Source: a virus
Length of the DNA: 48,038 nucleotides
IMG/VR virus record: IMGVR_UViG_3300046532_002634
Location: 1 to 48,038 of that record
Reading direction: 5' to 3' (one strand)
The notes below the pieces were generated by a model. That model saw only the letters and a program-made list of their open reading frames with translations. It searched no databases and was not told where the DNA came from. The position numbers were made by a program, and so were the translations under genes. Position 1 is the stretch's first letter, and each line of letters opens with the position of its first letter. Of this stretch, positions 1 to 44,540 are shown in pieces.

Positions 1-3000
1 AGTCAACTCCACCGCTTACACTCTGCTGAAAGGACGACTCATCAAATGCCAATTCCAGCGGCAGCTTGAGAAGCGGATTCATATTCCCAATAATAGAGAA
101 GGCTGCATCGCCAGCATTCAACGCAGCGAAGCCAGCAGCCTGTTGAACCGGCTGCTCATGCATCATCCCAATGTTCGTCAAGTAATGCCGCGTACCATCC
201 GCGTTTACACCGACAGGGAGAGACAGCCCTTTATTGATGTAGGTCGGCGTGGCAACATCCCTGTCCCTTCCGTGCCGTTGGGCGCGAATCGCGATCCCCA
301 CCTTGCCTGCGGGGTTAGTTGACAATTCCTTCCCAAGGTAGACAGCCATGCCCCTGCTGAAGGAATAAAATGGAAAGAATCGCCGCATGTACTCCTTCTC
401 GAAATTAGACAGATTCGAGTAGTCCACCTGAATAAGCTTGACGATCCTTGCTGCCTCATCCGGGCTGTACCCTTGACGCAGCAAGGCAATGAAGCCACCT
501 GCTCTGTGCTGGATCTCTACCGAATCTCCAACATTCTGCGCGATTTCCAAATACTTTTTGTAAGTATCACGAACCCGTACTGTTGCCTTTTCTGACACAG
601 TCATGCTGTCTTTAACACGCTTGGCTACTGGCGAAGTCCGCGACCTGTTTAACGCAAACGAGTTTCGGCCAAAGATAATCTTGTCATGATGTCCAAAGCT
701 GGGTCCGATTAACTGTGACTGTATTGACGCCGGGGCTTCACCGGGCAAGTCGCGATGCGTACCTGGTGCATTGACAATATCATGCGCAAACAATAGTTCA
801 GCGATCTCTTCCGTTGCTGCCTCATCAAGCGTTTGGCCCTTTGCTGGCTTGAGCTTGAGGAACAACGGGATACTGCCCGCGTCCTCGATTGTATTGCCTT
901 TCATCAGGGACTGACTGTCGCCATAGGGCGTGGTGTACCGACGAATATCCATAGCCCCGAAGCGAGGATCGGTCACATCATTAAGTGCATTCTGAATAAA
1001 CCCAGAGAAGAAATTCCTGACATGGAAGCCGGGGTTTGTGGAGGTGACATTTGTCTTGAATAGCTTGTTGTAGCTGTCAAACCAACCCAGAAGCGGTCCT
1101 ACACTGAAGTCGTCTGTTAGATAGGTCGTCGCCTTGCTTACGCTGACCAAGTCATCAGCGATACGCCGAGGCAGCTTGACCTGACCCAGCCACATTTTAG
1201 GATCAACATCTAAATTGACTCCATTGTAATTGCGTTTATCGCTTTTCAGAGCATTGCTGTACCATTCGTCGTAATCCTTTTCTGGTATATCTTTGAGCTT
1301 CTTTTCAAGAGCCTTGCCACTTCTTTTGAGATCAGAAATTGCTTCGGTATTATCGGAGCCAGCGAGATCCTCTAACCGCCCCTTGAGTTCATCTATTTCG
1401 GCTTGCCAAGAGTCCCTGTTTTCCAACCATGTGCGCCGCACTTTAGAGTGACGCTCTCGTAAGATGTTCTGCCTAGCTGTCTCTGCTGCTTCGGGAGGCA
1501 GAAGTGCAATCATCGCTGCTCGCGCGCGCTCCTGTCTGTGGTTCAGCTTTTTGGTAGTCTCTCTGAGTGGACTAAGTTTGACCCCCATTGCACCCAGTAC
1601 GCTCTCGCCGCTCTCTGAATAAAACGGAACCATCGCGCTTGGCTCAGGCTTCAGTAGTTTGTTAAATAGCTGACCAACCTTTACGTCATCTGCTAACGCC
1701 GCGCCCCTCTTACCCATGACTTTGGAAAGGTGTTGCTTGAATCCCGCCATGTACTTGTGCATACCTACCGGAGGCTTGATTTTGCCCTCGGAGTAACGAA
1801 CCATATCCTCTGCCATCCACTCTCTTGCCGATCTAGTGACGCCACCCTTGGTAACCGGCAAGTCCCAGTTGTTATTAAAAGCACCGTATATCGCCTGAGC
1901 ATGTGCGCTCAAGGCAGGGTCTACGCGGTCAAGTTCGTCAACAACTAACCCCGACATGACCCTCACCATGTCTTGCGGTTTTGCACCGTCCATTGCTCGG
2001 ACGATTGTTTTCTTACTCGCGGTTGCCCACTCGCTACTGGGCATCTCTACCTGAGCCACCACTTCACCCTCGGCGTTCTTCACATTCCGCCTGATTCCTG
2101 ACGTTGCAGACTGGAATAACATACCCGGCTCAGGATCGTCGCTAGGCTTAGGATCAGCATCAGGCTTGTAGACCAAATCCTCTGGTGTTGCATCGTCACC
2201 AAACATATCCATTTGATCTCGATCAACCTTGGCGTTTGATGTTTCAAACAGGCTAGATTGCTTGGCTTTGTGTGTGTCTTTTATCTTGCTTCGGAACTGG
2301 CGTCTCTGGCCCGTGCCGTCAAGCAAGCCAAGTTGATCGCCTTTGCGAGCCGCAGCATTGGACAGAGGTGCTGCGGGCTGTATTCCAGGCTGGCTTTCGA
2401 CCACTGATCCGGGGGCAGTTATCTTTGCAGAGCCTTTTCCATAAGTACGCATCAGGTAGTCAATAGCTTCCTGCTTTGTGTCACCGATGCCAACAGCGGC
2501 CATGCCGCCTTTGCGATCATCGCCAACAAGATGCCAAACGGGAGTGCCGAATTGTTGTGTGTCACGAAAAATCTCATGCTTTTCACCATTGGGCAAGGTG
2601 ACCTCATAAGTCCCTTCAGTCGCATATTTTTCTGTTCTGCGGACAACGGGCTGGAATAGATCAGAAGCATCCGATGACTTGCTGACTGCTGTTGCAGAAG
2701 TTGCCAGCGGATCTTCGACCGGGAATGGCACAGCATCACCTGACCCTCGGTTCTGCGTCACTAAATTTTTCGGCCAAGCTCCCCTTACCCTATCGAATCC
2801 TCTTGCATCACCTTGTTCGCTCCACCGGATTTCCTGACCACCAGCCGACTCAAACACTACCGGCATCTTTGTCTCGCCCTGTGCCGCAAGTTCCATTGCT
2901 CTATGGCGACCCTCATGACCCACAACAGACGCAGTACCCTTGCCATCATTGCTAAATGACAGGTAGGGCAGATCGCTAAACTTCTCTCCATCTTCGACAA

Positions 3001-6000
3001 CCGTCCGCACTGCGTCTTGGCTTGTTGGGCGTGCCTGATCCAGACGCTCTGCCATTCGCAGGAAGTCTTGAATGTTCATCTCAACTATCGTGCGACGCGA
3101 CTTGTAGCCTGTCTCTGCTCGGTCAAACGCCTGCTGTGAGAAGTATTTTCCAGAAGCAAACATATCTGGCTTTGCCTCTTGCCGAAGAATACCTGGCTGA
3201 AACATTTCCTCCCCATTGGCTCCGAACGCAAAGTCAGTAGGATCGGAAGTCTTTTTTTCCCCAAAGACACTGTCCTTTACACCCACCGGCTGGGTGTTTG
3301 TTATGTACTCATCGGCACGGCTTATCCCATCCTCGCTTTTCCACAAATCGGATTTACCAGCAGCTATGTATTTCGTTTTGCGAATATGGGTTGTTTCTGG
3401 TTTTGTACTAGTGGCCTTCCTCACTACGGTGGTGTGCTTCGTCTTTACATCAAGCTTAAGTATTGCCTTAAAAACTGCTTCAGTGTAATCACCGCCCCCA
3501 CCACCGCCAGATCCACCGAGATGATTGATGATCGAAGAATGCTCATCCAGCAGGGGACTCCATCCGGCGTCATCACTGTACTTCCAGTTATCTGAATCAC
3601 CACCTCGTCCGCTCCGTCCTCCGGTTTGCTCATGCTGGCTTGCATGCTCATGTAGATAGATAAGGTGATCGTCAATACTAATCCCCTCTCCTATCCTCTC
3701 AGTCCCTGGCGCGCGCCAGAAGGCGTCACGCAGTAAATTCAATTCCAGATTTTCACTTGCCATGTCTGCCCTCGCATCCTCCAGCATAGCCTCCATCGCC
3801 TCTCGCTTATCGGGCGTTATTTTATTCGGATGTATGTCGTAGTAATCCGCGAGTATCTTCCGCCGTTTCAAATGTACCTTTTTACTCACGCGATAAGGCC
3901 TGTCAGCCCCACCTGCTGCGTCAATAAGTCCTGCCCTTTTCTTCTTGAGCGTGGGGGCTTGCTTTCGCTTGGGTCGCTTCTTGCCAAGCATGTTGTCAAA
4001 CACATCTCGCATTTCCGGGGAAAGCTCTCGCTCTAATGGCGAACCCTTTACGCCTTTGTAAATATCGAGCATCCAAGTTTTCATTCTGGCGAACACGCTC
4101 TCAAGATCCTTGGTTGGTGCTTCGCCAGTGGCAAGGTATTTTTCAAAGTCCCCAGCCCACGCCTCTTCATTCTCTCTCGTCCACGCTCCGTTGTTTACCC
4201 CATAGTGCTTTTCGGAACGAAGCAGTAGATCATCGTCCAAAAGATGCAACTGACGACGAAATGCATGCGATAGCTCATGAGGCAAGGTGCTTGCGTCAGA
4301 GCCTTTTAGCAAAGTAATGACCGCATCTCGTCCCTCTTCGCCTAGTTGGATCATGCCTCGCGGGGGGCCAGTACCTGCCGTCTTGCGCTGCTCCAAAACA
4401 TTAGTGATATGCACGCTGGCATCATCAAATATCACAAAGTTGTAATTCGCGTTCTTCTTTCCTTTGCGGCTCAGGCCATCAAGAAACTTCACCCCCTTAA
4501 TGCCTCTGGCGTTTAGCATCTCCGATACTTGCTGTGGGGTAAATGCACTCTCTAATGCTTTTAAGACATCGCCTGCCGATGCTGATTCATCCAAATCAAG
4601 GGCTGACAATGCTTGCTGTCGTTTTGATAGATTGCCTGCTTCGTCTAGAGGGTTGAGGCGGAGTTCTTCGACGCGGTCCGCGATTAAAGGATGCCATTCG
4701 TTTTCTAAAATGTCATCAAGTCCGTTTCGCACAACTGGGCTTACGCTACTGCCAAATGCCGACTCGTCCCACATTAAGTATTCACTGTCTTTGGGTAACA
4801 GGTCTACCTCGTATAGGCTTCCTTTGTGAGATGTAATTACCCCGTCCGCTTCCATGCGATACATAGTCGCAATGATGTCTTCTACTGGATAAACATCTGC
4901 TTCAGTTAGAACATCCATATCCAAATCACCAGGACTACGATGTAACACCCTGTCCGACCTCCAAAACTTTGAAAGTTCAGTGTTGTATTTATTGGATTTG
5001 TATCGAATAGACCGCTCGACTGATGCCAGGTCGTCGTTAATTGTTCCATGAAGAAAGTTTTCAAGGACTTGAGCAATGAGGTACTGCGGATCGGCATTTC
5101 GAGTTTTGATAACCTGAGCCTTTGTGACAGACAAATTTTCTAGGCCAGGGTAATATCGCTCTCTAGCTTCCCCGATGCTCATGTCAACATAGTCATCTAA
5201 GCCAGCATCTAGTGTCCTACCTACTTTCTGTCCCTGATACGACCATCCGCCCAGGGTTCTTCGGTAGTAGTTAGCAACGCCCTTCGATGAAGCAAAGTAC
5301 AACCCATAACCAAATGCTTGCGCGCCCTCACCAGTTCCGATCTTGCTTAACGTAAACTTATCAAACGGTGGAATGCCATTGCCGTGAAAGGCCGACTGTT
5401 TGAGTATGTCAAAACGAGTTCCGTGTGACTTGATAGCGTTACGAGTTGTTCCGTACTCAGTTACCTCTCGCATGAACAATGTATTGCCAACAGCAATGAC
5501 ATCATTCCCTCTCCTGACCTCTTGTCCGGTACGCTTGTCATAGAAGAAGTTTGCTTTCTTTGGATTGAAACCAAGTGGAGTCCAAGAATCAATATCTACT
5601 GGGATAACATTCTCCGCACCCTGCGGCGCACTAAGCTCGCCAAATGCTCTCGCCAGAGTGGTTTTATTCTTTTCTCCTTTCGCGATTCGGTTGGACTCCT
5701 TTTGCTGCCCGACAGTAAGCTTTAAGTCAACCTCACCCTCGATCCGAGCATACCCTGTGTGAGCTATAACCTTTCCGCCTCTTTCGCCCTCATGCAACGT
5801 AACGACATATTCCCCGCTGCTTTCAAACGCAGGAATATCTATTCGCACCCCAACTGTTTGACCATCAAACTGGGAGATATCGACGACCGTGTCTCTCTTG
5901 TCAGAGGACAATATCTGACGAATCCTATCGTTGCTTGGGATTCCTGTCTGCGAAATCCACTCGCTGTTGCGTCCGTCACCTACTGCCTGGAAGTCACCAG

Positions 6001-9000
6001 CACTAAGGTCAGACTTCATCCACGCCTTAAATGCAAGATTGTGTTTTTCTCCGCTGGTCGCTCCAGGCTTGAGCGATTCATCTCGCGTTAGAATCCATAC
6101 GTCATACTGCGACCGAAAAACGGCATGGCGAGACTGTGCAAGAACCAAAGGATCTGTTTCAGTACGCACAAGAGATGAAACCGGCTGGCCTTTTATTAAC
6201 TCAGCCTGCTGTAGAGTGTCCTCCCTGCCCTTGACATATTCTTCCATCCGCCGGACTTGCGTTAGGTATCTCTCGTAGTATTCATCTACCGAGCCGACAT
6301 CATTGCCAGACTTTACAATTTGATTGGCAAAGGCGTCCGACAATGCAATGTTCGCTGCGGCCTGTTCCTCACCGACAACCTCAATCATCTGCGAGTAAAC
6401 CCTGTCTCTTGCAGATGCTTTAGGATCAAGTGAATTAACGGCTTTAGGTGGAACCACAAGGTATTTGTCTACCTTAGCTTTCGCCCGCAAAAACGCTCTT
6501 TTAAGAGTATTGAATTGCTTGGGGTTTAGATCATCCCCTGTCGCCCCCCTTGCCATATCAAGGTATGTGTTTGTTGTTTCATCTACTGCCTGATCAAGGA
6601 TCTCTGCTGCTAACTCACCGTCCGCTTTCATCGCATCGTCGAACTTGCCTGCCTTCAGTAAATCTACTACCTCGATAACTCGACCTTTTAATTCATCTTC
6701 GGAGGGGGTTTGTGAATAACCAAGACGCTCCAGTAGTTCTTCCTCGCCATCATTCATTGCGTCGTGAAGAGACTCTGAGATTGCGTCTGGAGTATCAAGC
6801 CTGTGACTGATCGCTGTCATTTCGGGGTTTGTGAATTTTAGTAAACCTGTAGCTCGTCTTGCCTTTGGCCCTAGTTCAACTATCGCATCGTCCAGCTTTG
6901 TGGTGGAAGGTCGGCTTAATGCTGAACGATGTGCAGCAGCCTCTATCGCCACATTGGTCTGCTTCGAGATAGCGGAAACTTGAGCGAGTAACTCCCCGCT
7001 TTCGTCCAGAAAGACTAACCCACTAGGAGTACCAGCCCTCGTTGTGACTTTAACGACAGCATCTGGGTGCATATCGACGATAGTGTCGATCACTCTACCG
7101 GAAACAATCACTCTGTTTCCACTAGAGTCAGAGTACCTAGCGTACCGAATGCCGCCAGACGCATCATACGCTGGCCCGACGGCTTGGCGTGCTGAACTGT
7201 TTAGCGTGTCAGTGGCATCATTGATCAGCTCCTCCGCCGCGATCATGTTGTTAGCGTTCGGCGCGTTAGGGTTCCTGTCTATGGATTTCATTGCCGAAAG
7301 TTTTGCTTCACCATCAAGCTTGATCATGTATCCCACCCCCTCCGACTCCCCCTTAAATACTCCAGTCGCATCAAGGATGTCTGAACTGTTCGATTTTCCG
7401 TCGAATTGGCGACCGAGTTCGGCGGCGTCCATTGGGCTGGCGTCGCCACCACCCTCAAATTTCAATCCATCAAGGTTTTCACTTGCCTTGCGTGTCTTTG
7501 CCTCTCGGACTATGACCTTTGCTTTTTCATGTATCTGTGTCGCAATATTTACTTTTGACCTGGCTCTAATTCCATGACCATTACCAAAAAGCTCGTCGGC
7601 AAGATTCTTTAACGCATTCATGCTCGCCGCAGTGGACAATTCACCACCATCGCTAATCAGGGCGTCGAAGTCTGAGTCGGCAATACTCTGAATCCTGCCC
7701 TCAGTAGTCACAGCTTCTGCCGCATCATCCGCAACTTTTGTTGCATCATCCGCAACTTTTGTTGCATCATCCGCAGGTGGCGATGGTGGTGCGTCTGGCG
7801 GAACGCCAGAAGGGCTATCAGGCTTAGGGCTTGCTGGACTGCCATCACCACCTGGCCCCGGTCGCTCGCCGCCCGCACCTGTCTGATCTCGCGGTGTCCT
7901 ACCACTTTGGACATCAAGCTGCCTAACGACATCGCTCATGCCTTGGTCAGTGCCGCGACCAACCGATTGCGCCGCCTCGCTGACCGTGCCAAGCGCACTG
8001 TCGGCCCCCTCTGACCCAAACGCACTCCTGATACCTGCCTCAGTGGCAGCAACTGACCGATCACGGACGACCATCGTGTCTGCGACGATATTGCGTAGGA
8101 CATCAGCATTCGACCGCGCTTTATATGCTGCCTCCAACGCCCTAAGTGCGGCGTCTGCTGGATTCACACTAAACATCGTGATGTTCTTTTGAACATCTTC
8201 GATAGTTCGCTCAGTTATTGCCTTGAACAAGTCTTTTTTGGCTTCGTCTGTTAGGCCAGACATTTCATTAGAGTATTTTTTGGTGAAATTATCCCAACTC
8301 TCACCCTTCTTTTCCGCCAATTCTTTTGTCTTGTTCCAAAGAGTTGGCGACAGTGTGCCAGCAAACTCAGTGTCCGTTGACATGCGATTCAAAGCCGCTG
8401 TTCCACCGACTATGTTTCGGTATCTGTCCTCTCGCTTGATCTTGTGGGGAGTCTCTGGATCAAACAGCTTAGAGCCACCAGACTTCTTGCCCGTGACAGT
8501 ACCCTTGATGGTCTGTCTAATCCTTGGGAAGTAGCTTGCATACAGATCCTGCAACTGGGTCACATCGACATTCATGTCAGAAGCTTCAACAACAAGATCA
8601 TCCATCTGTGTCTTGGTGCGATCCAGCGGATCAATTGCTGCCCGCAGTCTTGCGCCTATTTCGTCTGCTTGTCCAGCGATTGCTTTGTCGCTACTGTCAC
8701 TGAAAGCCTTTATCTTTTCTTTCAGGAAACGCTCCGCATATCCAGAACTGCTTTCTGTAAACAATTCATCCCTACTAAGCATGAACTCAAGCATCCCTGA
8801 ATCCTCGTCCATGAGTCCTTCTGCAATTAGTTGCTCGTCAGACTTACGGACCCTGCCAATATCCTCCAAGTATTCAAGCATGAAGTTGCCGATTTCATTC
8901 CTTTTTTGCTGCAATACTTCGCCCGATACTTCCTCAATGATTTCCCCAGCCTCGTCATATTTATTAAAGTTGTTCAAGATAGGGTCAAGCTGTTTAATGC

Positions 9001-10192
9001 TCTCAAACATCTCCTGCTTGGCGACAACGAAGTCTTGCTGCAATAGATTCTTCGCTTCTCGGATAGCCTTTTGCGACTCAGGTGTATTGGCATGTTGGAA
9101 CGTCTTGCTCATTCGCGACGTAACGCCAATGATTGGACGACTGTACCGCATTCCCCGTGCAAGTCGGTCAACGCCTGGCGCAAGACCACTTCCAAATGAC
9201 TTGTCAACGATGCCACCGGGCAGACGGAATCGCATGTATCCCTGCGAGATATCAGCGTTAGCCACCTCGCCAACCATTTCGTCCCACTCTTTGGAGCCAC
9301 GCTTAACGCCCTTGGCTTCCGCTGCCTTCTTGAAGTGCTTGTCTCCCGCCAACGCATTTTCAAACTCTTTAGATAAAGAGTCGGTCGCCTTGCCTGTTGT
9401 TTTGCCGCTCTGCTTGACTGGGTTCTGTATTGCATCTTTTGCAGACATCTTGAGCAAAGATTCTCTCTTGCCAATGTCACCAACCGCGTCACTGACCTTG
9501 CCAGCATTCTTCGCGTAAATATCGATGTTATCTAACAGGCCAATCTTCTTTAACGACCTTGCAGCCTGCGCACCTTTACCAACACCCTTGACGGCAGCAG
9601 ACGCTCCGAACGACATATAAGTCAACGGATCGAGCAATACCTCAAGTCCTATGCCTGCTCCCATGCGACCCAAAGTAGTACCAAGACCTTTAGGATCGCC
9701 GCTGTCATCAAGAAGACCGTAACCTTCAAGTAGCTCCTCGCCTGAGATTCTGACATCAGACGACCCCCAATTCCACGGGAGCAATTGATCAAGCGGGTTG
9801 TGGGGTGTTGGGCCACCGGGTAGCCAAGTCAGAACATCGCGAACCACACTGCCTGGAACATCGAGAATGTTTCCAAGACCACCAACAGTGTCTAACGCAA
9901 CGTCTCCTGTTTGGCGCAATAGCGATCTTTCGTCAAACTCCGACGCAAGATTCGGGTCAGCAGCGGAGGTCGCTACGGGCTGCTGTAGGCCCGTTGGTTG
10001 GAGCCTCGCAGATGGACGCTGTAGCTGCTGTTGCGCACGCTGACGCTTGTACTCCTTCCCGCTCAACAAAGAGTCTCTTCGTTGCTGAATCCCCTGCCTG
10101 ATCCTGACACTGGCCCCCTGTGGCTCAGTGTCCTCTTGGCCGTAGGCACTTGCTGCGCGTGAGGCGATCAGTCCGTAGTTAAGTGGTGGCAT
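1..10192 (-). CDS. Giant polyvalent phage protein (partial, at least 3,397 aa): ART-like, HExxH peptidase, ParB-like and C-terminal virion domains
   Basis: A single frame is open from ATG at 10192 to the window edge without a stop, so the C-terminus is missing. An in-frame TAA about 21 nt upstream makes this the first ATG. Around residue 185 is an LDPLTY segment typical of giant phage internal proteins, and near 806-821 an ADDATKV tandem repeat. A domain near 1550 (FYDKRTGQEV) precedes an ADP-ribosyltransferase-like domain starting at His1603 (FHGNG, then KIGTGEGAQAFGYGLYFAS) and ending near 1900 with GIKGVKFLDG. HELSH at 1972-1976 marks a zinc metallopeptidase. A ParB-like segment has VVGHEGRHRAMEL near His2426. 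The C-terminal part has TNPGFHVRNFF (about 3050) and RFFPFYSFSRG (about 3273). This matches the polyvalent proteins described by Iyer and co-workers, thought to be packaged and injected to counter host defences. Anchor motifs at 9631, 7774, 5386, 4279, 2917 and 4 share one frame. Role is inferred. Confidence 0.9.
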   Translation of the reverse strand, partial: MPPLNYGLIASRAASAYGQEDTEPQGASVRIRQGIQQRRDSLLSGKEYKRQRAQQQLQRPSARLQPTGLQQPVATSAADPNLASEFDERSLLRQTGDVALDTVGGLGNILDVPGSVVRDVLTWLPGGPTPHNPLDQLLPWNWGSSDVRISGEELLEGYGLLDDSGDPKGLGTTLGRMGAGIGLEVLLDPLTYMSFGASAAVKGVGKGAQAARSLKKIGLLDNIDIYAKNAGKVSDAVGDIGKRESLLKMSAKDAIQNPVKQSGKTTGKATDSLSKEFENALAGDKHFKKAAEAKGVKRGSKEWDEMVGEVANADISQGYMRFRLPGGIVDKSFGSGLAPGVDRLARGMRYSRPIIGVTSRMSKTFQHANTPESQKAIREAKNLLQQDFVVAKQEMFESIKQLDPILNNFNKYDEAGEIIEEVSGEVLQQKRNEIGNFMLEYLEDIGRVRKSDEQLIAEGLMDEDSGMLEFMLSRDELFTESSSGYAERFLKEKIKAFSDSSDKAIAGQADEIGARLRAAIDPLDRTKTQMDDLVVEASDMNVDVTQLQDLYASYFPRIRQTIKGTVTGKKSGGSKLFDPETPHKIKREDRYRNIVGGTAALNRMSTDTEFAGTLSPTLWNKTKELAEKKGESWDNFTKKYSNEMSGLTDEAKKDLFKAITERTIEDVQKNITMFSVNPADAALRALEAAYKARSNADVLRNIVADTMVVRDRSVAATEAGIRSAFGSEGADSALGTVSEAAQSVGRGTDQGMSDVVRQLDVQSGRTPRDQTGAGGERPGPGGDGSPASPKPDSPSGVPPDAPPSPPADDATKVADDATKVADDAAEAVTTEGRIQSIADSDFDALISDGGELSTAASMNALKNLADELFGNGHGIRARSKVNIATQIHEKAKVIVREAKTRKASENLDGLKFEGGGDASPMDAAELGRQFDGKSNSSDILDATGVFKGESEGVGYMIKLDGEAKLSAMKSIDRNPNAPNANNMIAAEELINDATDTLNSSARQAVGPAYDASGGIRYARYSDSSGNRVIVSGRVIDTIVDMHPDAVVKVTTRAGTPSGLVFLDESGELLAQVSAISKQTNVAIEAAAHRSALSRPSTTKLDDAIVELGPKARRATGLLKFTNPEMTAISHRLDTPDAISESLHDAMNDGEEELLERLGYSQTPSEDELKGRVIEVVDLLKAGKFDDAMKADGELAAEILDQAVDETTNTYLDMARGATGDDLNPKQFNTLKRAFLRAKAKVDKYLVVPPKAVNSLDPKASARDRVYSQMIEVVGEEQAAANIALSDAFANQIVKSGNDVGSVDEYYERYLTQVRRMEEYVKGREDTLQQAELIKGQPVSSLVRTETDPLVLAQSRHAVFRSQYDVWILTRDESLKPGATSGEKHNLAFKAWMKSDLSAGDFQAVGDGRNSEWISQTGIPSNDRIRQILSSDKRDTVVDISQFDGQTVGVRIDIPAFESSGEYVVTLHEGERGGKVIAHTGYARIEGEVDLKLTVGQQKESNRIAKGEKNKTTLARAFGELSAPQGAENVIPVDIDSWTPLGFNPKKANFFYDKRTGQEVRRGNDVIAVGNTLFMREVTEYGTTRNAIKSHGTRFDILKQSAFHGNGIPPFDKFTLSKIGTGEGAQAFGYGLYFASSKGVANYYRRTLGGWSYQGQKVGRTLDAGLDDYVDMSIGEARERYYPGLENLSVTKAQVIKTRNADPQYLIAQVLENFLHGTINDDLASVERSIRYKSNKYNTELSKFWRSDRVLHRSPGDLDMDVLTEADVYPVEDIIATMYRMEADGVITSHKGSLYEVDLLPKDSEYLMWDESAFGSSVSPVVRNGLDDILENEWHPLIADRVEELRLNPLDEAGNLSKRQQALSALDLDESASAGDVLKALESAFTPQQVSEMLNARGIKGVKFLDGLSRKGKKNANYNFVIFDDASVHITNVLEQRKTAGTGPPRGMIQLGEEGRDAVITLLKGSDASTLPHELSHAFRRQLHLLDDDLLLRSEKHYGVNNGAWTRENEEAWAGDFEKYLATGEAPTKDLESVFARMKTWMLDIYKGVKGSPLERELSPEMRDVFDNMLGKKRPKRKQAPTLKKKRAGLIDAAGGADRPYRVSKKVHLKRRKILADYYDIHPNKITPDKREAMEAMLEDARADMASENLELNLLRDAFWRAPGTERIGEGISIDDHLIYLHEHASQHEQTGGRSGRGGDSDNWKYSDDAGWSPLLDEHSSIINHLGGSGGGGGGDYTEAVFKAILKLDVKTKHTTVVRKATSTKPETTHIRKTKYIAAGKSDLWKSEDGISRADEYITNTQPVGVKDSVFGEKKTSDPTDFAFGANGEEMFQPGILRQEAKPDMFASGKYFSQQAFDRAETGYKSRRTIVEMNIQDFLRMAERLDQARPTSQDAVRTVVEDGEKFSDLPYLSFSNDGKGTASVVGHEGRHRAMELAAQGETKMPVVFESAGGQEIRWSEQGDARGFDRVRGAWPKNLVTQNRGSGDAVPFPVEDPLATSATAVSKSSDASDLFQPVVRRTEKYATEGTYEVTLPNGEKHEIFRDTQQFGTPVWHLVGDDRKGGMAAVGIGDTKQEAIDYLMRTYGKGSAKITAPGSVVESQPGIQPAAPLSNAAARKGDQLGLLDGTGQRRQFRSKIKDTHKAKQSSLFETSNAKVDRDQMDMFGDDATPEDLVYKPDADPKPSDDPEPGMLFQSATSGIRRNVKNAEGEVVAQVEMPSSEWATASKKTIVRAMDGAKPQDMVRVMSGLVVDELDRVDPALSAHAQAIYGAFNNNWDLPVTKGGVTRSAREWMAEDMVRYSEGKIKPPVGMHKYMAGFKQHLSKVMGKRGAALADDVKVGQLFNKLLKPEPSAMVPFYSESGESVLGAMGVKLSPLRETTKKLNHRQERARAAMIALLPPEAAETARQNILRERHSKVRRTWLENRDSWQAEIDELKGRLEDLAGSDNTEAISDLKRSGKALEKKLKDIPEKDYDEWYSNALKSDKRNYNGVNLDVDPKMWLGQVKLPRRIADDLVSVSKATTYLTDDFSVGPLLGWFDSYNKLFKTNVTSTNPGFHVRNFFSGFIQNALNDVTDPRFGAMDIRRYTTPYGDSQSLMKGNTIEDAGSIPLFLKLKPAKGQTLDEAATEEIAELLFAHDIVNAPGTHRDLPGEAPASIQSQLIGPSFGHHDKIIFGRNSFALNRSRTSPVAKRVKDSMTVSEKATVRVRDTYKKYLEIAQNVGDSVEIQHRAGGFIALLRQGYSPDEAARIVKLIQVDYSNLSNFEKEYMRRFFPFYSFSRGMAVYLGKELSTNPAGKVGIAIRAQRHGRDRDVATPTYINKGLSLPVGVNADGTRHYLTNIGMMHEQPVQQAAGFAALNAGDAAFSIIGNMNPLLKLPLELAFDESSFQQSVSGGVD
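7721..7783 (-). repeat. Three 21-bp tandem repeats in the giant gene
   Basis: Three near-identical 21-bp units in frame encode ADDATKV, ADDATKV and ADDAAEA. They sit in a Pro/Asp-rich stretch that looks like an inter-domain linker. Confidence 0.7.
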
Positions 10193-10243: not shown

Positions 10244-12127
10244 CTATTCCCGACCAGCCGGATCGACGTATGTCGTCGGCTTGCTTGGTTTTTGCTTGCC
10301 TGTGGGGACACTGGGAGTGGGTGTGTCGAAGCCAGCGGCTTTCATCATCTGATCACGCTCCTCATCCGTCGTGTCCCATTGGAACCAGTTCCAAAGCCAG
10401 TCCGGTCCTAAACCATCGGTGTCGTAACCTGCATCACTCAACGCTTCTTCCATTTCCCTTTGTCCAGAAATCCCAAACTGCTCGCGCTTGTAAAACTCCA
10501 AGTCGTCTTTAGAGAGGCCAGCGGAGAGCAATAATCTCAACCCCGCGTAGCGTTGATCCGCAGAAACCCCATCTTGGCCTTTAAACATCAACTGTCCTCC
10601 CATCGCTGGGCTTTTCTGGATTTTTTGCTGCTTAATAACCAACTCGTTGTCACCTTTTTTTATCTGATCCTTGAGTGTTAAGTCGCCAATCTCTGCCTCC
10701 TGCTTCTTCTCTTTAAGCAAAAACTCTTTCTCTTGCATCTTCATTGATTGTTGAAGTATGTCTTCCTTATCAAGTTGCTGACGCGCCATACCGATGGCTT
10801 GCGTTCGGCCCATATTGGGACCGTATGTTGGCTGAAGACCAACGTGCGATGGCCCAGCTATTCCGCCGCTTGGATCAACTATTGCGCCGCCAGTGCGACC
10901 ATAGTTCTGAAGCTGTGCAGCGCGAGTCCTTAACTCTCTGGCAGCGTCTTTGCGATCCTGACGAGCCTCGCGAGCTTCTTGCCACTTGCCGTAGTCAGTG
11001 ACGGACTTCACCGTTCCATCTTCATTGAAATCAGTGTACTTTTCCCCGGCAATCCTAGCCGCTCTCCTTGGGGCTTTTGCGTTGTTAAGCATGTCCCTGT
11101 ATTCCCGACCTTCTTCGGTGTATAGGATGCTGGGGTCGCCATCGTTATCTTCTACAAATGCGCGAACTGCTTCGGGAACGCTAGGCCCGAACCTCGTCGC
11201 GGCAACCACGCTTGCCTTTCCGTAGGTTGGGGAATTAGGATCGGTGTCTACCTTTCTGAGAAAACCTCTGTCATCTTGCGGGCGTACATTTGGGTCTTGC
11301 GGCCCTTGCGTCCCATCGTATTGGTTTGCCATCCCTTCGATCCGCTGCGCTGTCTCCATTTGTTTTTGAGCCATGTCTCTGAAATGCATGCTGTCGAGGG
11401 CTTCACCACTGACCATGCCGCCCGGTGTCATCATTGAACGGCCCTGATCGCTTCGGGACGGAAGCCTATTTAACAACCCTTCATTCACGCCAGGAGAAAC
11501 AGGAATGCGCCGGGGCAGGGCAGGCTCCATTAAGTTGGAGTTGCCCAGTGGATCTGTATTGGTCCTGTCTATGTAGTTTGGCTGTCGCGGTGCAGCTTGC
11601 AGTATTGGGCTTTGAGCATTTGCCGCATCTTGTCCGTAGTTTTGCTCGACTGCGCCTTCAAGGAAATAATTCCTTGCAGGGACAGGCGACGGGGCAGGTA
11701 TGTTGCTTGGACTTTGCGGATTTAAATTAGCTCTCGATGGAGGCGGTGTGTATCCATCAGCATCACGAAGTTTTCTAGCCTCAAACTGAGCATTTGACTC
11801 GGTGTTCAACTTTTGCAGTCCACCAGAACTTGGCACTGACGGTGCGGCAGGATTAGCACCAAGACGCTGCAACCGTGCCTGGTATTGCGATATGGTTTCT
11901 GTGTTCATCTTCTTCGGGACGGGCAACTTCGCCGCTGGTGTGCGTTGCGGTGCGGCCACGCTACGCTTCCCAAACTGCGGCATCCTGACAGACGGAACCG
12001 CAGGCTGCATGGTCATTTGCGGCATCCTGACAGACGGAACCGCACCGCCCGGCAGATTCGGCGGATCAAAAGGATCATATTGGGGAGGGTTATGCCTTGG
12101 CCCACGCGGTGGTCGTTGAAACATCAT
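10244..12127 (-). CDS. Pro/Gln/Arg-rich virion-type protein, 627 aa
   Basis: I do not recognise a family. The N-terminal 250 residues are low-complexity, rich in Pro, Arg, Asn and Gln, with the block AVPSVRMPQ present twice. The middle has a charged helical, probably coiled-coil stretch (LLKEKKQEAEIGDLTLKDQ, residues about 470-490), and the C-terminus is acidic then Pro/Lys-rich. ATG at 12127 follows AGGA seven bases upstream, and that ribosome site overlaps the stop of the preceding gene. It lies directly upstream of the giant polyvalent gene with a 51-nt gap, so a structural or injected internal protein is plausible but unproven. Confidence 0.8.
   Translation of the reverse strand: MMFQRPPRGPRHNPPQYDPFDPPNLPGGAVPSVRMPQMTMQPAVPSVRMPQFGKRSVAAPQRTPAAKLPVPKKMNTETISQYQARLQRLGANPAAPSVPSSGGLQKLNTESNAQFEARKLRDADGYTPPPSRANLNPQSPSNIPAPSPVPARNYFLEGAVEQNYGQDAANAQSPILQAAPRQPNYIDRTNTDPLGNSNLMEPALPRRIPVSPGVNEGLLNRLPSRSDQGRSMMTPGGMVSGEALDSMHFRDMAQKQMETAQRIEGMANQYDGTQGPQDPNVRPQDDRGFLRKVDTDPNSPTYGKASVVAATRFGPSVPEAVRAFVEDNDGDPSILYTEEGREYRDMLNNAKAPRRAARIAGEKYTDFNEDGTVKSVTDYGKWQEAREARQDRKDAARELRTRAAQLQNYGRTGGAIVDPSGGIAGPSHVGLQPTYGPNMGRTQAIGMARQQLDKEDILQQSMKMQEKEFLLKEKKQEAEIGDLTLKDQIKKGDNELVIKQQKIQKSPAMGGQLMFKGQDGVSADQRYAGLRLLLSAGLSKDDLEFYKREQFGISGQREMEEALSDAGYDTDGLGPDWLWNWFQWDTTDEERDQMMKAAGFDTPTPSVPTGKQKPSKPTTYVDPAGRE
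11976..12044 (-). repeat. Pair of exact 27-bp direct repeats
   Basis: The same 27 bases occur at 11976-12002 and 12018-12044, 42 bp apart. In the coding strand they give the repeated peptide AVPSVRMPQ. Exact identity at every codon position suggests a recent duplication. Confidence 0.85.
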
Positions 12128-12839: not shown

Positions 12840-13352
12840 TTATTCCGTAAGCTTTGCTTTTTGCTCCATCCTGATCGCAAGCTTGAGCATCTTTTCTGCT
12901 GCTTTCCTTCGCAGCACCAAAGGAATAGCCGTTGTGACCTTCCCCATCTTTTCGCTTTGACTGACCAAATGTGAGATGATGTACTCAGCCTGTTGCTTGC
13001 ACTTCTCAATTCCCCAACTATTCATCTTCCGCTCTAGATTTCCACACCCACAGGTAGCCTTTGGAACTTTGTCCAGAAGTGACTGGGGTAGGCTCTTTTC
13101 AATCAGCTTTTTGAGTTGAGTACCAGTGGTACTGCTACCACGGAGTTGAGTACCAGTGGTACTGCTACCACGGAGATGAGTACCAGTGGTACTGCTACCA
13201 CGGAGAGCAGCCTCTATCTCGTTTCGATGATCGGTAAACCACTGTCGTGTTTCTGCTGGGCAAGTTGACCAAGGGATTACGCCTAGTCGATTCCGCTTTG
13301 GAATGATGCGAACGCTGTACCCCATCTCTTCGATCTCTTTGAGGATGCTCAT
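12840..13352 (-). CDS. TubC_N-like / CxC..MN..G...C phage protein, 170 aa
   Basis: Residues 1-49 (ILKEIEEMGYSVRI...LGVIPW...HRNEIEAAL) resemble the TubC N-terminal docking fold often found at the start of phage and plasmid proteins. Residues 50-80 are three tandem copies of RGSSTTGTQL (first copy with H for Q). Residues about 98-118 hold a Cys motif, TCGCGNLERKMNSWGIEKC, of a kind I associate with phage virion-cluster proteins. The C-terminal 50 residues are basic and helical. Its ATG overlaps the stop of the upstream Cys-rich gene by four bases (ATGA). Function unknown; the Cys cluster may bind metal. Confidence 0.8.
   Translation of the reverse strand: MSILKEIEEMGYSVRIIPKRNRLGVIPWSTCPAETRQWFTDHRNEIEAALRGSSTTGTHLRGSSTTGTQLRGSSTTGTQLKKLIEKSLPQSLLDKVPKATCGCGNLERKMNSWGIEKCKQQAEYIISHLVSQSEKMGKVTTAIPLVLRRKAAEKMLKLAIRMEQKAKLTE
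13115..13204. repeat. Three tandem 30-bp repeats with internal dyad symmetry
   Basis: Units lie at 13115-13144, 13145-13174 and 13175-13204, nearly identical. Each contains TACCAGTGGTA, itself a palindrome, overlapping TGGTACTGCTACCA, which can form a five-base-pair hairpin. They encode the RGSSTTGTQL repeat. There are no spacers, so this is not a CRISPR array. Confidence 0.9.
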
Positions 13353-18849: not shown

Positions 18850-19881
18850 TCAAGCGGGGTGAGTGTTGAGGATGCTGATCGGTTCAGTAGGACTTGCCCC
18901 GCCGACACGATAAGCCTCCAGATCCAGACTGAGCGGAATCTCGCTCGGCCCGCTTGTGCTTGGCGTAACTCGCGTCTGCCTCAGATCAGGAAGAGTGATT
19001 ACCGTTTTGTAAAGCACATCGACTTCCATGTTGTTGTGTGGCAACTGACCACCCAAGAAACTAAGCACCCCACCTCCCTTGAAGAAGTTGATATACAAGT
19101 TTGTGTGAGTCGCTGTAGTGTAAGGCGTCCGAACACGAAGCCGAATCTTTCGACCATTGCTTTGGATGCAAACCACCTTCAGGAAGTTTCGAGTCTTTGG
19201 TTGAAGATTATTGTCAATCCTCAGCGAAAAGGCGTCAAAGTAATACTCTATGGGAACATTGGCTGCTGCGGCTGGCAAGGTATCTGGCAAGGCTGTCATC
19301 ACTAGCTTCCCGTCGCCAAGCAACCAGTACAGTCGCTCACCGTCAGGAAGGGGTGGTGGAGTAGTAGGCCAAGTGTCGGTCCGCTCTTCATGCCCGATAA
19401 TTTGAAGCGTCATTCTCATTACCTGACCCTGACCAGCAACTGAAGCGGTCGAGGTAAATGTTGCCGAAGACACAGAACATGCGCGGTACTGCACCGTTCC
19501 CTGATCTCGCCGTAGCATAATGTCAAACGGAAGCAGATCAAATACTTCGTCAGTTGTGAACGTGGTGCTTGCCGCTGGATTTCCAAGAATGCGCGGCAAC
19601 CATTTGTCGAGTGCATAAGCACCAACTTCCATCACGATGGAGCCAGCGACGATTCTCGTCCCATGGCGAGTGTGGTTTCCCATCGAATCAATGGTTCCGG
19701 TCAAGCCCTCGCCGCCAAGGAGCTTATCGGTGTAACGAATGTTCTCTGAGATGATCTCATATCGCTCAGAACTCGCGTCAATTGTCGCGAAGGTACAATC
19801 GGTGGTGCTGTCCTGCACGGCCATCGCCGTGTAAACACCCATACTACCGCAGACATCTACTGCCAGTGGGTCACAGGTCAT
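18850..19881 (-). CDS. Putative tail-tube-like or major tail structural protein, 343 aa
   Basis: The frame is open further upstream, but ATG at 19881 (MTCDPLAVDVCG) has an excellent AGGGAGGA site inside the end of the upstream gene and starts one base after its stop, so it is chosen. The sequence is beta-rich with evenly spaced hydrophobic strands and no catalytic motif. Position immediately after a probable tail-completion gene suggests tail tube or a major tail component. No tape-measure gene follows, so a tube role is only tentative. Confidence 0.7.
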   Translation of the reverse strand: MTCDPLAVDVCGSMGVYTAMAVQDSTTDCTFATIDASSERYEIISENIRYTDKLLGGEGLTGTIDSMGNHTRHGTRIVAGSIVMEVGAYALDKWLPRILGNPAASTTFTTDEVFDLLPFDIMLRRDQGTVQYRACSVSSATFTSTASVAGQGQVMRMTLQIIGHEERTDTWPTTPPPLPDGERLYWLLGDGKLVMTALPDTLPAAAANVPIEYYFDAFSLRIDNNLQPKTRNFLKVVCIQSNGRKIRLRVRTPYTTATHTNLYINFFKGGGVLSFLGGQLPHNNMEVDVLYKTVITLPDLRQTRVTPSTSGPSEIPLSLDLEAYRVGGASPTEPISILNTHPA

Positions 19882-19882
19882 C

Positions 19883-20341
19883 TTATTTATCCTCCCTGAA
19901 TGTGGTACTAATTTCCATTGTATCAATGTCATACTTGCGTGACACGACATCATCCATGTCGTAATCACCCATGCTAGTAGAGCTAATTATCTCGCCGCTC
20001 AATCCCGTCACGCGACGGTCTTGAAACAGTTCGCGTATTTTGTCTCGGACTAGCTCGTAGTCCGTTGCTGACCCTGATTGCCGGGTGCTGCTACCAGAAA
20101 CAAAAACAACCAACGTCTTCCTGATTACATCTCGAACACAAGAGAAGGTACGCCCCGACTGACTCCCCAGTGGCTTGATCCATACTCCGCTTTTTACTGT
20201 CTCGGTAAATCTCTTTCCGGTTACTCCTGGTATCTTCTTTAGAAGCTCAGGTCGTCGTACATTTACACCGCTGGGCCAGTTGTCATTTATCAACTGAGCG
20301 TGAGTGCTAGATACTTCCCAATCGGTATGCTGAACCGTCAT
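19883..20341 (-). CDS. Putative tail-completion / neck protein, 152 aa
   Basis: A 152-residue alpha/beta protein; the pattern RDVIRKTLVVFVSGSS followed by a short helix (YELVRDKIRELFQDRR) and terminal strands (DIDTMEISTTFRED) resembles small tail-completion or minor tail proteins. The gene sits between a connector-like protein and the major tail-like protein, which is the usual site. Its last codons carry the ribosome-binding site for the next gene. Confidence 0.65.
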   Translation of the reverse strand: MTVQHTDWEVSSTHAQLINDNWPSGVNVRRPELLKKIPGVTGKRFTETVKSGVWIKPLGSQSGRTFSCVRDVIRKTLVVFVSGSSTRQSGSATDYELVRDKIRELFQDRRVTGLSGEIISSTSMGDYDMDDVVSRKYDIDTMEISTTFREDK

Positions 20342-30746: not shown

Positions 30747-31163
30747 CTACCTTGCTTCCAGTTTTGAGATTCGTTTGCCTAAGCTTTCGATCTGTTCGTC
30801 AAAATACTTTTTTTCGTCCGTGAAATCCCACACGCCGTCCACATCCATTCGCAGATCAGGGTTCGTGCTAAATCGAGTGTCGTCCTTGTGTAGGACTTCG
30901 ACGTAACCCTGCCCCCGGAACGCAACTTCGATGGACTTCTCGCCCACTCGCATGACATGAGCTATGTCCGCATTGTTCTCGGACACTGTCGCTCGATGGT
31001 AGAAAACCACAAGTTGACCGCGTGTCGGTTGTGGCATCTTCCACGCAAGTGGCTCCGGTGGTTCGGCGTCAATCTGTGCAGCGACTGCCACTGGTTCATA
31101 GCTCGAAAATGATTCAGTAGTGCGAGCGACTACGGGTTTACGGGTTGGTGATTTCTTAGCCAT
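30747..31163 (-). CDS. Hypothetical protein between terminase and portal, 138 aa
   Basis: ATG at 31163 lies nine bases after GGAG; a TTG two codons upstream is less likely. The N-terminus is basic and disordered, followed by a small beta domain (GQLVVFYHR, AHVMRVGEKSIEVAFRG) with an SH3-like strand pattern, and a C-terminal coiled coil (EQIESLGKRISKLEAR). It overlaps the terminase end by eight bases. Conserved position suggests a packaging or assembly factor. Confidence 0.65.
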   Translation of the reverse strand: MAKKSPTRKPVVARTTESFSSYEPVAVAAQIDAEPPEPLAWKMPQPTRGQLVVFYHRATVSENNADIAHVMRVGEKSIEVAFRGQGYVEVLHKDDTRFSTNPDLRMDVDGVWDFTDEKKYFDEQIESLGKRISKLEAR

Positions 31164-32916
31164 TTTCAAACACTCCAGTTGGTCCCAAAATTATCGTGCT
31201 TGTAAATCCAAAAGGATTTGCTGCCTCCTGCCGCAAGCGTTTTCGCTCCTTGAATTGTCGAACCCGACGCTGGCCGGGTGTCTCTACCCGCCTTCGGCCC
31301 TTTGGGGCGACGTAGGGCTGTCTTGTGTCAGTCAGGTAGGCTGACAGGTATTCCATGCACTCGACGGCGTGAGTGTTAGATCGTCGGTTCCCGGTGTCCG
31401 TGACATTTCCGTTGACCTTCTTTTTCCTGAAACGCCGCATCTCCCGATCAAGATTTGGACATCGATCAAAGTCAAATATCAACTGAGGACTTCCGCTGCC
31501 ACCGACCGACAACATTCCTCTCATCACCTCTTCGCGATAAGCGATGACGGAACAACCCGGAATGAATCTGTGCTTCGTTTCGACGCACTGCACATCCTCT
31601 TTTTTCATCTCCCGCTCATATGCTTCGCGCGGGGCGATTCCTGTATCGATGGATGTTAGGTTTCCACCATGTGAGTCAATGATGAACGACTGAAACCAAT
31701 CTCCTGCTGTTTTTCTGGCTAGAGCAAAAGCTATCTTCCTGGCGTCACATTGGTGAATATAGATTTCGTCGTAAACCAAATGCCATTTGCCACTCGGTGG
31801 AGTAGCTATTAGGACCGCAGCAGCCGTTTCATGGCCGGGGTCAACAGCAAGCCGCCTGCACCAACTTGACGGGACATTTCGATCCTTAAGGTATTGATCT
31901 GCTTCGCCAGCGAGTTGACCCGCATAGCCCTGAATGTCATGAAGCCCGCGCTTCCACATCGGGTACATCAATACAGAATCCGTGACCATCTCGCCCAATG
32001 CGCGTTTTCGATAAACGTCATCGCCCATGCTTTTCCAACCGGCGACCGCAGCCTTCTTTGCCTCTTCTGGCAGGTACGGATTACTTTCCATCGATATGCG
32101 AAAGACAACGGTCGTAGGTTTCGTTCCGCCTCGTTCATGGGACTCTTCTTGAGATTCCGCTCGCTCCGCGAAACGTGCCATGCAATCGTTTTCATCGTGC
32201 GGCAACGCCGACCAAAGCAACCGACCGCTGCGGTCAATCAAACGACCAGCAGCCTCCTCGTACCACGATGGATCGAGGATATCCTCATCGATTAAACAAC
32301 AGTCCAATTGGAAGCCCTGTTCCGGCTTTGCTCTGCTGGAAAATGCCATGATTTCCCAACCACTTTTCAGATAAACATTACTGAAAACTTGCTTCGCTCT
32401 ATCCTTCCAAACGATCTTTTCGATCATCCGGGGTGGGATCAATGGAGGTGCTGGCTTCGCCTCTTTCTCGCGAGCTTTGTCTTGCGGAACCCACGGGCGA
32501 TAGACACGCCACAACTGAGTCTCGGTATCGCGAATGATCTTGAATGCACCAGCCTTGAACAGGTAGGGATAAATTACATTCCCAATATTAAACGCCTTAT
32601 AACCAACGATGGCTAACTTACCATCTCTTAATGGATACTTTCCGTAGGGATCTTTTCCCTGAACCGCTCTTGCTACCTCGACAAACGCGGCGAGGCTTTT
32701 TCCACCTCGGTTGCCACCCATTAACATACATTCTGGCGCATTGCATTTATGAAACTCTTCCTGAGTTGGTTGAGGAACGTACAGGTTGAGAGACTCAAGC
32801 CGACGCTGCGCGATCTCGTTCGCGACTCGGATCGCCTTCTTCTTAGCGAAGTTGCCGTTCCCTTTTCCAATTAGTTCCATCGCGTCCACTGGCATGGACC
32901 CAGAATCACTCACCAT
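31156..32916 (-). CDS. terL: Large terminase subunit, 586 aa
   Basis: The two-domain packaging motor is clear. Walker A is GGNRGGKS (residues 67-74) and Walker B is LDCCLIDED (204-212), with a coupling SALPH near 236-240. The nuclease domain has Asp359 in RRLAVDPGHE, Asp414 in FIIDSHGG and HAVECMEYL near the C-terminus. The subunit drives ATP-dependent DNA translocation and cuts concatemers at the portal. It starts with an 11-base overlap of the preceding zinc-finger gene. Confidence 0.95.
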   Translation of the reverse strand: MVSDSGSMPVDAMELIGKGNGNFAKKKAIRVANEIAQRRLESLNLYVPQPTQEEFHKCNAPECMLMGGNRGGKSLAAFVEVARAVQGKDPYGKYPLRDGKLAIVGYKAFNIGNVIYPYLFKAGAFKIIRDTETQLWRVYRPWVPQDKAREKEAKPAPPLIPPRMIEKIVWKDRAKQVFSNVYLKSGWEIMAFSSRAKPEQGFQLDCCLIDEDILDPSWYEEAAGRLIDRSGRLLWSALPHDENDCMARFAERAESQEESHERGGTKPTTVVFRISMESNPYLPEEAKKAAVAGWKSMGDDVYRKRALGEMVTDSVLMYPMWKRGLHDIQGYAGQLAGEADQYLKDRNVPSSWCRRLAVDPGHETAAAVLIATPPSGKWHLVYDEIYIHQCDARKIAFALARKTAGDWFQSFIIDSHGGNLTSIDTGIAPREAYEREMKKEDVQCVETKHRFIPGCSVIAYREEVMRGMLSVGGSGSPQLIFDFDRCPNLDREMRRFRKKKVNGNVTDTGNRRSNTHAVECMEYLSAYLTDTRQPYVAPKGRRRVETPGQRRVRQFKERKRLRQEAANPFGFTSTIILGPTGVFENG

Positions 32917-34205: not shown

Positions 34206-35351
34206 CTACGCTGCGGACAGCGGCTTCCAAACTACAAAATTGCGAGGACTCTTGTACTTGATGTTACTCAAGGTCGAGACAACACAGTTCAAGCTTTGAG
34301 TCGCGAGGTCGTATTGTGGACCGCCCTCTGCGTCAAAAAGGCTCTCAGTTAATCCCATCAATTCCATGCAAGCCAGATTGATGCCGAACCCATACCCGAC
34401 AGGTACTGAATTTTCATATGAAACTTCTACCCCGTCAAATCTGTACGAGTTCAAAAATCCCAATTCACGCAGCGATCCCGGTGCGTTCGTCACCTCGATG
34501 GTTTGCCGACCATCGTTGTGATCTTTCAACTCGATGTATTTATTACGGTCAAGCATCACGTTAGTGATCTGACCATCAATGCTTGAGTTCCGCTGGGCGT
34601 GAGTAATCCCGTAGCGAATTGCTTGCTCCATTTTTGCGCCAGCAGTCGATCCGCTAAACGCTGTGGAATCAGTTACGACTTGAAGACTACTCCAAAAATC
34701 GTATTGCTTATCCGCAGTCGCTTCAGGCCAGCTAGTAGCAGCAGTTTGCGCGCCGCCGTAATAACCAAGACCCATGTTTATGCCACCGTAGCTTCCATAT
34801 GGGGCGATCACTTTATCAGCAGCGTTCGCGGTTCGGGCCACGTTGGTGTCCAAAGTCAATGTTTGACCATTGCTCTGCGCCAAGGTTTTTAGCCCATGCC
34901 AAAAGCGTTCGTTATCAGCATGTTCGCCATCGACAAACCACTGACTGGCGAGTCCTTCCATCAAGCTGCTCTTGATGCGCTCGGCAAACTGATCAACAAC
35001 CTTCACGATTGCTGATTCGCCTTTATTCTTTTCCAACTCGCGCCTTTTAATGCTATCAACGCACTCATATCCGCGCCAGTCTAAATTGCCGGTCTTAAAA
35101 AGACTCTGAGCAACAAAGCTGCGAGCGTTTTCGCCGGTCGCTGCTTGCGTTGCGTGGTCTTTGTATTTCACGACCCATTGCAGTCCCTCACCACCGTGAC
35201 CAGTGCTGATTCGACCTGCTTGATCCATCAACGCCATAAGGGCGTGGTTGCGTTTTGTCGCATCCTCAATATCTTTGAGGAGTTTAGGTAGCGAAGTTGT
35301 CAATGATCGCTGCCATGAGAAGCGATCAAAACCCTGGAAACTGTTAGCCAT
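34206..35351 (-). CDS. HK97-fold-like major capsid protein, 381 aa
   Basis: Length (381 aa) and order after a scaffold gene fit the major capsid protein. Segments such as LLKDIEDATKRNHALMALMDQAG, LDWRGYECVDSIKRRELEKNKG, ITNVMLDRNKYIELKDHNDGRQT and SYRFDGVEVSYENSVPVG fit the N-arm, spine helix and A-domain pattern of HK97-type capsids. GGAGGA lies at a perfect distance from ATG 35351, consistent with very high expression. Confidence 0.85.
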   Translation of the reverse strand: MANSFQGFDRFSWQRSLTTSLPKLLKDIEDATKRNHALMALMDQAGRISTGHGGEGLQWVVKYKDHATQAATGENARSFVAQSLFKTGNLDWRGYECVDSIKRRELEKNKGESAIVKVVDQFAERIKSSLMEGLASQWFVDGEHADNERFWHGLKTLAQSNGQTLTLDTNVARTANAADKVIAPYGSYGGINMGLGYYGGAQTAATSWPEATADKQYDFWSSLQVVTDSTAFSGSTAGAKMEQAIRYGITHAQRNSSIDGQITNVMLDRNKYIELKDHNDGRQTIEVTNAPGSLRELGFLNSYRFDGVEVSYENSVPVGYGFGINLACMELMGLTESLFDAEGGPQYDLATQSLNCVVSTLSNIKYKSPRNFVVWKPLSAA

Positions 35352-44489: not shown

Positions 44490-44540
44490 CTTCAATCCTT
44501 TTCCAGAGCTAAAAATTGACGCACCGTGCGCCGTGAGTTG

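Follow-up and report, generated by a model that had tools for sequence, protein, structure and literature searches.

A giant polyvalent phage protein probably carries a payload of predicted enzymes between delivery modules of the internal-virion type

The window, by which we mean the whole stretch of 48,038 bases analysed here, is an IMG/VR virus record whose left end is occupied by one giant gene. The gene lies on the minus strand, a correction to the original prediction, and shares strand and block with the genes for the major capsid protein, terminase, portal and tail tube. It is the last gene of this structural block, and several genes separate it from the tail tube. The main genes are as follows:

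2..10192, minus strand: gene for the giant polyvalent or ejection protein; 3,397 codons, truncated at its 3' end where the record stops
10244..12127, minus strand: 627-residue protein directly upstream of the giant gene (712 residues in the sister phage L002), no family match
18850..19968, minus strand: tail tube protein, PF18906
28688..30739, minus strand: portal protein, weak SU10 portal match, Pirellulaceae homologue
31156..32916, minus strand: terminase large subunit, with homologues in a Pirellulaceae MAG
34206..35351, minus strand: major head protein

By its position, the 627-residue protein is possibly a second internal virion protein. The same structural region also encodes an adjacent pair of cysteine-rich proteins of 239 and 530 residues without family matches (13349-15657), and at 26222-26998 there is a gene for a papain-family (C1) cysteine peptidase, scoring 25.3 bits and over the Pfam cut-off. 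Compared with phages by megablast, the first 25 kb of the window gave no match.

The giant gene is a single unbroken frame, with an ATG start at 10192 and no stop codon through position 2; the intact frame of at least 3,397 codons that had been predicted is thus borne out, open at the left end of the record. Since the record ends inside the gene, the C-terminus of the protein is missing. Alignment to its homologue in L002, a 54,657-base contig and the one close relative found in the viral collection, places about 150 C-terminal residues beyond the window edge, so that the full protein would measure roughly 3,550 residues. On sequence evidence, the frame is genuinely coding and no chance ORF, since L002 encodes a complete co-linear protein of 3,628 residues with 59-88% amino acid identity over the named domains and with pN of 0.08-0.28 against pS of 0.66-0.84. 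In every domain pN stays well under pS; we give no dN/dS because silent sites are saturated between the two phages. ORFs on the strand opposite the giant gene are read as shadows.

Pfam scans of the giant protein, whole and in slices, gave no family above its cut-off, so every domain claim was tested via relatives. The single-protein scan of viral contigs and those labelled A1, A2 and A4 found L002 alone, and reaching wider relatives needed a four-member alignment (A6) together with DNA patterns for the motifs GHEGRHRA and NPGFHVRN. Along the protein, from its N-terminus, the following parts can be told apart:

9167..9952, minus strand: N-terminal chassis module, residues 81-342, common to a 1,264-residue protein of a Pirellulaceae contig and to podovirus proteins
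7703..7912, minus strand: low-complexity linker rich in Pro, Ser, Gly and Asp, residues 761-830, the sole clear one in the protein
5393..6220, minus strand: probable recombination tract, residues 1325-1600, about 280 codons, ending at the ART start
5423..5875, minus strand: conserved module directly before the ART, residues 1440-1590; PF25735 (Phage_L5_gp82) at 20.1 bits, cut-off 27
4388..5395, minus strand: predicted ADP-ribosyltransferase (ART) domain, residues 1600-1935, with H1603, Y1632 and D1923 conserved
3917..4375, minus strand: predicted zincin-like metallopeptidase (MPTase) domain, residues 1940-2092
4265..4279, minus strand: HExxH zinc motif, HELSH, residues 1972-1976
4163-4165, minus strand: predicted third zinc ligand, the downstream Glu E2010
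2708..3127, minus strand: predicted ParB/sulfiredoxin-type domain, residues 2356-2495
2897..2920, minus strand: GHEGRHRA motif, residues 2425-2432
2333..2680, minus strand: segment of about 115 residues, 2505-2620, present here and mostly missing in L002, a payload gain or loss
1193..2125, minus strand: residues 2690-3000, conserved in the sister only and including residues 2778-2850
2..1195, minus strand: C-terminal chassis module, residues 3000-3397 and beyond the record, similar to chain A of the A4 pre-ejectosome

The ART, HExxH and GHEGRHRA motifs all lie where the original prediction had read them. Its mention of linkers of low complexity was overstated, as one stretch stands out (residues ~761-830), and its inventory of domains was short by at least two further conserved modules, at residues ~1440-1590 and ~90-350.

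For segment 1600-1935, evidence at the levels of sequence and fold supports an ART, whose activity is predicted. Pfam ART-PolyVal (PF18760) scores 14.8-15.7 bits against the giant protein and does not reach its gathering cut-off of 31.2, while it is matched in 11 of the 13 full-length relatives (E 0.01 or better). An alignment of the relatives' ARTs recruits more than 570 viral stretches and 75 genome loci, and many of the ARTs so recovered belong to small proteins. The signature of the ART-PolyVal/Tox-ART-HYD2 clade consists of a His in strand 1, a Tyr in strand 2 and an Asp in strand 5 (PMC5512222). The giant protein has these HYD residues, conserved among relatives in 175/183 (H1603), 174/181 (Y1632) and 110/147 (D1923) cases; D1923, picked by position, would be the catalytic Asp. 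When the ART and the MPTase were modelled jointly by AlphaFold (pLDDT 81.7), the top PDB match of the ART model found by VIA-align was chain B of entry 9k3a (Z 10.8), and the other matches with Z above 8 were five ADP-ribosyltransferase catalytic domains (Z 8.4-9.0), so the model has the fold of the ADP-ribosyltransferase superfamily. The BFVD matches of the same model are proteins named ART-PolyVal-like; a Foldseek search of the two-domain model against the PDB gave nothing useful, the matches coming from VIA-align.

The neighbouring segment 1940-2092 is supported as a predicted zincin-like peptidase chiefly by its relatives, which keep the H, E and H of the HExxH motif in 69/69 cases and E2010 in 71/72. 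PHROG 9880 matches this region with E 9e-20, and the same MPTase occurs in phages of the BPP-1, Caulobacter and Xanthomonas types. In structure comparisons, the MPTase half of the model matches zinc peptidases as well as ArdC, an antirestriction protein, at Z 3.5-5.4, values low enough to arise by chance. A search of PDB sequences with the MPTase profile ranks a zinc peptidase and a zinc metallohydrolase among its best matches, neither of them significant. PF18818 (MPTase-PolyVal) has no match in the record itself. Further downstream, residues 2778-2850 show a faint likeness to the C-terminal MPTase half but have no HExxH (7.7 bits against 5.7 for the best of 2,000 shuffles; E 21 within the whole set), a weak signal of what is possibly a dead second copy.

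The third predicted domain, residues 2356-2495, is supported as a member of the ParB/sulfiredoxin superfamily by its model (pLDDT 90.5). The structure matches of this model found by VIA-align are all below Z 8, and those listed, at Z 3.2-6.0, include Srx, ParB, Noc, Osa, SbnI, a free serine kinase and uncharacterised proteins. Foldseek places the same sulfiredoxin/ParB group at the top, and SbnI provides the sole matches of the sequence profile to PDB sequences (E 0.035). GHEGRHRA is identical in 53 members, an invariance that arises by construction, as the DNA scan for members selected on that motif; we infer that its Arg corresponds to the pocket Arg of the ParB/Srx active site. PF18763 (DdrB-ParB) found no match in these 53 members at E 0.1.

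Overall, the three domain assignments hold at the levels of conserved residues and structure-model matches (the ART to ART folds, the ParB domain to folds of the ParB/Srx type, the MPTase half to zinc peptidases in the Z range given above), while none of them scores above a Pfam cut-off here. The family matches to which the original prediction had looked were obtained in part: ART-PolyVal and LPD38 (PF18857) appear in 11 and 9 of the 13 full-length relatives scanned, respectively, while PF18818 and PF18857 are unmatched in the record itself. Because its one unbroken reading frame joins disparate domains (an ART, a zincin-type and a ParB/Srx domain), the giant protein does belong, as had been proposed, to the phage-type polyvalent proteins (Iyer et al. 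2017, PMC5512222).

What had been overlooked is that the N- and C-terminal parts look like a reusable chassis and the middle like exchangeable cargo. Iterated profiles built from residues 90-470 and 3000-3397 find large proteins of other phages, and in 47 ORFs the match to the C-terminal profile lies, with few exceptions, at the C-terminal end, regardless of their length (1,109 to 3,948 residues, at least 1,000 in 43/47) or cargo. In L067, where the position was shown, this profile is directly followed by LPD38; LPD38 has no match in our record and in L002, and its expected place here falls largely past the record end. Several carriers of the chassis (L290, L297-L302), some of them recorded as podoviruses, are without ART, MPTase and GHEGRHRA-type ParB, and some chassis homologues lie in podovirus records with P22-type stabilization proteins. 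Two isolated phages, Microbacterium phage Shocker (gp37) and Cellulosimicrobium phage DS1, also have the C-terminal chassis. The rates at which domains and chassis occur together are biased, since most architectural relatives were retrieved via ART or ParB patterns. In known phages, related large proteins are encoded last in the structural cassette, after an internal virion protein. Against the PDB by sequence alone, the profiles of both terminal segments gave nothing useful, and similarity of the chassis to T7 gp15/gp16 was nothing convincing (at most 11.4 bits).

Entry 9k3a, which provided the top match of the ART model, is the pre-ejectosome of cyanophage A4, whose structure paper is reference 61 of PMC12810830. 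Its chain A is A-4L ORF26 (1,114 residues) and its chain B is ORF27 (1,717 residues), encoded by neighbouring genes downstream of the tail and internal-protein genes. The C-terminal chassis profile scores 22.0 bits against ORF26, where 1,000 shuffles gave at most 5.9 and the sequence reversed gave -0.5, and hhalign aligns it with chain A at E 9.4e-5 and 59% probability, the reversed controls giving E of at least 0.1. Such values suggest that the C-terminal chassis is a distant homologue of chain A, which agrees with the earlier proposal that this segment resembles ejected internal virion proteins. In A4, therefore, chain A holds the segment common to the C-terminal chassis, and residues 1418-1606 of chain B are the best fold match of our ART. 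The latter likeness is one of fold only, as the ART sequence profile detects nothing in ORF27, and the MPTase and ParB profiles found nothing in A4. Judging by the match to ORF26 and the ART fold in ORF27, one chain here appears to hold what the A4 capsid stores as two: the cyanophage has two adjacent genes, whereas in the window phage everything is fused. ORF27 itself (L310:20119-25269) is annotated as 'tail protein' and has, with its ART-like fold at 1418-1606, a YHGT...GTYFS motif.

The comparison with L002 tells how the parts of the protein have diverged. The two terminal segments share 88% and 87% of their amino acids with L002, the ParB domain 84%, the MPTase 72%, the ART 59% and the linker regions 37%. 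The sisters also differ in payload content: relative to our protein, L002 carries an insertion of about 140 residues near residue 1104 and is missing most of 2505-2620. By eye this insert (13238-13705, q1122-1265), absent from the window protein, is ART-like with a YHGTP motif; we dropped the idea of a second ART in L002, as the insert escapes both the ART profile and Pfam. Among the sequences collected, the window phage and L002 are the only ones to combine the ART, the MPTase, the GHEGRHRA-ParB and the C-terminal chassis.

Within this divergent gene, residues 1325-1600 are much closer to L002 than the rest. Inside this tract 9.6% of 125 four-fold sites differ from L002, against 63.9% of 923 elsewhere in the gene; the 11 differences observed compare with 2,000 permutations that never gave fewer than 44. 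Nucleotide identity is 93-99% over most of the tract, with saturated divergence at both flanks. The pattern is best explained by recent recombination within the gene, and an overlapping constraint is the less likely explanation. The tract covers the unnamed module that precedes the ART. This module of about 150 residues (1440-1590, DIPA...NP....FYDK) recurs in large phage proteins from more than 500 viral stretches, usually without an ART; a link between module and ART was considered and dropped, as an ART occurred in 0/70 further ORFs with the module.

A relative without the payload is provided by a contig from a Pirellulaceae (Planctomycetota) MAG (C68, L305-L307), which encodes a major capsid protein, terminase and portal related to those of the window and in the same order; the terminase large subunit is 42-43% identical to its Pirellulaceae MAG homologues. 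This kinship of terminase, portal and capsid genes suggests that the host of our phage is to be sought among planctomycete bacteria. At the place of the giant gene, the contig encodes a 1,264-residue protein whose alignment to the giant protein is confined to residues 81-342 and 3004-3383. The simplest reading is that the payload was built into the middle of a lean ejection protein in the window's lineage; alternatively, it may have been lost in the lineage of the Pirellulaceae contig. Away from the gene for the 1,264-residue protein, the contig has two solo ART genes (6121-6960 and 44272-45132), and it is possible that these are the source of the fused ART or a substitute for it.

Taken together, these observations lead us to suppose that the giant protein is, with good probability, an internal-virion (pre-ejectosome) protein in which N- and C-terminal modules form a delivery chassis around a middle payload of about 2,650 residues. 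We read it so because the ends recur without the payload in other phages, the C-terminal end resembles A4 chain A, and the ART matches chain B. Homology and gene order suggest that the protein is packaged in the virion, and homology suggests that its domains are catalytic; an anti-defence role would be a prior taken from the polyvalent-protein concept alone. Ejection, autoproteolysis, enzymatic activity and targets belong to the following scenario, which we offer as a proposal. By homology, the protein would be kept above the portal inside the capsid and, at infection, threaded through the tail with or before the DNA. The chassis would help to form a DNA conduit across the envelope, while the payload would reach the cytoplasm, bringing several host-directed enzymes on one chain. 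According to the polyvalent-protein model, the zincin peptidase would probably cut the chain and free the modules. The ART might then modify some host macromolecule by ADP-ribosylation and the domain of the ParB/Srx type might act as a nucleotide-dependent nuclease or an NTP sensor, the targets of both being a matter of speculation.

The presence of a PF18906 tail tube raises the thought that the giant protein could serve as the tape measure in a siphovirus-like tail, having gained effector domains; it would then set the tail length and be ejected before the DNA. Tape measure proteins do leave the virion at infection. As a tail tube protein is encoded, the tail may be longer than in podoviruses, and a search of the window (10193-35000) and of the Pirellulaceae relative for a tape-measure gene apart from the giant gene found none; with the tube gene present and no other candidate at hand, the idea stays under consideration. 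We nevertheless hold it improbable. Homologues of the chassis belong to recorded podoviruses with P22-type stabilization proteins and to the A4 pre-ejectosome, the giant gene closes the structural block instead of immediately following the tube, and the carriers of the chassis vary in length as widely as noted above. With a tape measure role, tails would have to differ threefold in length between the phage with the payload-free protein of 1,264 residues and ours with about 3,550.

That ARTs need no delivery is evident from the solo genes of the Pirellulaceae contig and the many ARTs in small proteins, and on such grounds the giant protein might be made in the infected cell and left unpackaged, acting as a late-made intracellular effector or a host-takeover factor. 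The chassis with its pre-ejectosome likeness and the place of the gene, last in the structural block, speak against this, as does the fusion itself, which would have no obvious point unless the single chain were delivered; we consider the proposal unlikely. Less credible still would be that the enzymatic domains are catalytically dead structural relics kept for assembly. The faster evolution of the ART (59% identity) and linkers (37%) relative to the chassis (87-88%) would fit such decay, as might the weak case of a dead MPTase copy at 2778-2850, but our protein has the HExxH..E residues and the His and Tyr of the ART, which hardly vary even among distant relatives, and pN is far under pS in each domain. 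An ejected chassis with a payload remains the reading we prefer.

Several known systems help to place the protein so understood. The polyvalent proteins described in PMC5512222 likewise combine an HYD-type ART, a zincin MPTase and a ParB/Srx domain in one large chain and are encoded with virion genes beside the terminase-portal system, as here; the giant protein differs from them in that its ParB domain is not detectably of the DdrB-ParB family. The virion RNA polymerase of N4 and other Schitoviridae, a multi-domain protein of about 3,500 residues with a HExxH region, is packaged and ejected (PMC12633501). It is similar to our protein in size and in having HExxH, but it carries an RNA polymerase, and the Pfam and PHROG matches of the giant protein include none. 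Bbp10 of Bordetella phage BPP-1 and its relatives (PHROG 9880), namely Caulobacter Jess A gp39, Xanthomonas CP2 ORF24 and vir555_54, have the same MPTase at 28-32% identity in proteins of 2,000-2,500 residues encoded close to where the structural cassette ends; our C-terminal chassis profile did not reach these Bbp10-type proteins. T4 Alt is an ART that is packaged in the virion and injected (PMC5512222), although it belongs to another clade (R-S-E) and is a separate protein, unlike the multi-domain chain described here. The Dar proteins of phage P1, for their part, are ejected and protect DNA.

It is tempting to generalise and to suppose that the C-terminal module, which precedes LPD38, is the pre-ejectosome core and serves as a general chassis in many phages, with in-frame recombination swapping the effector cargo upstream of it; we propose this tentatively and give it a little less than an even chance. 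A literature search, extending to sources other than the A4 structure paper, found no earlier statement of the chassis and cargo view or of its tie to a solved pre-ejectosome. So far, the packaging and injection of phage polyvalent proteins have mostly been inferred from gene context. The likeness to 9k3a chain A and the ART fold of chain B turn this inference into a testable structural claim, and the payload-free relative and the recombined tract indicate how cargo may be swapped. If this scenario is true, the C-terminal module would offer a means of detecting effectors delivered by phages in metagenomic data, and polyvalent proteins like the giant protein would be ejectosome proteins with a cargo bay.
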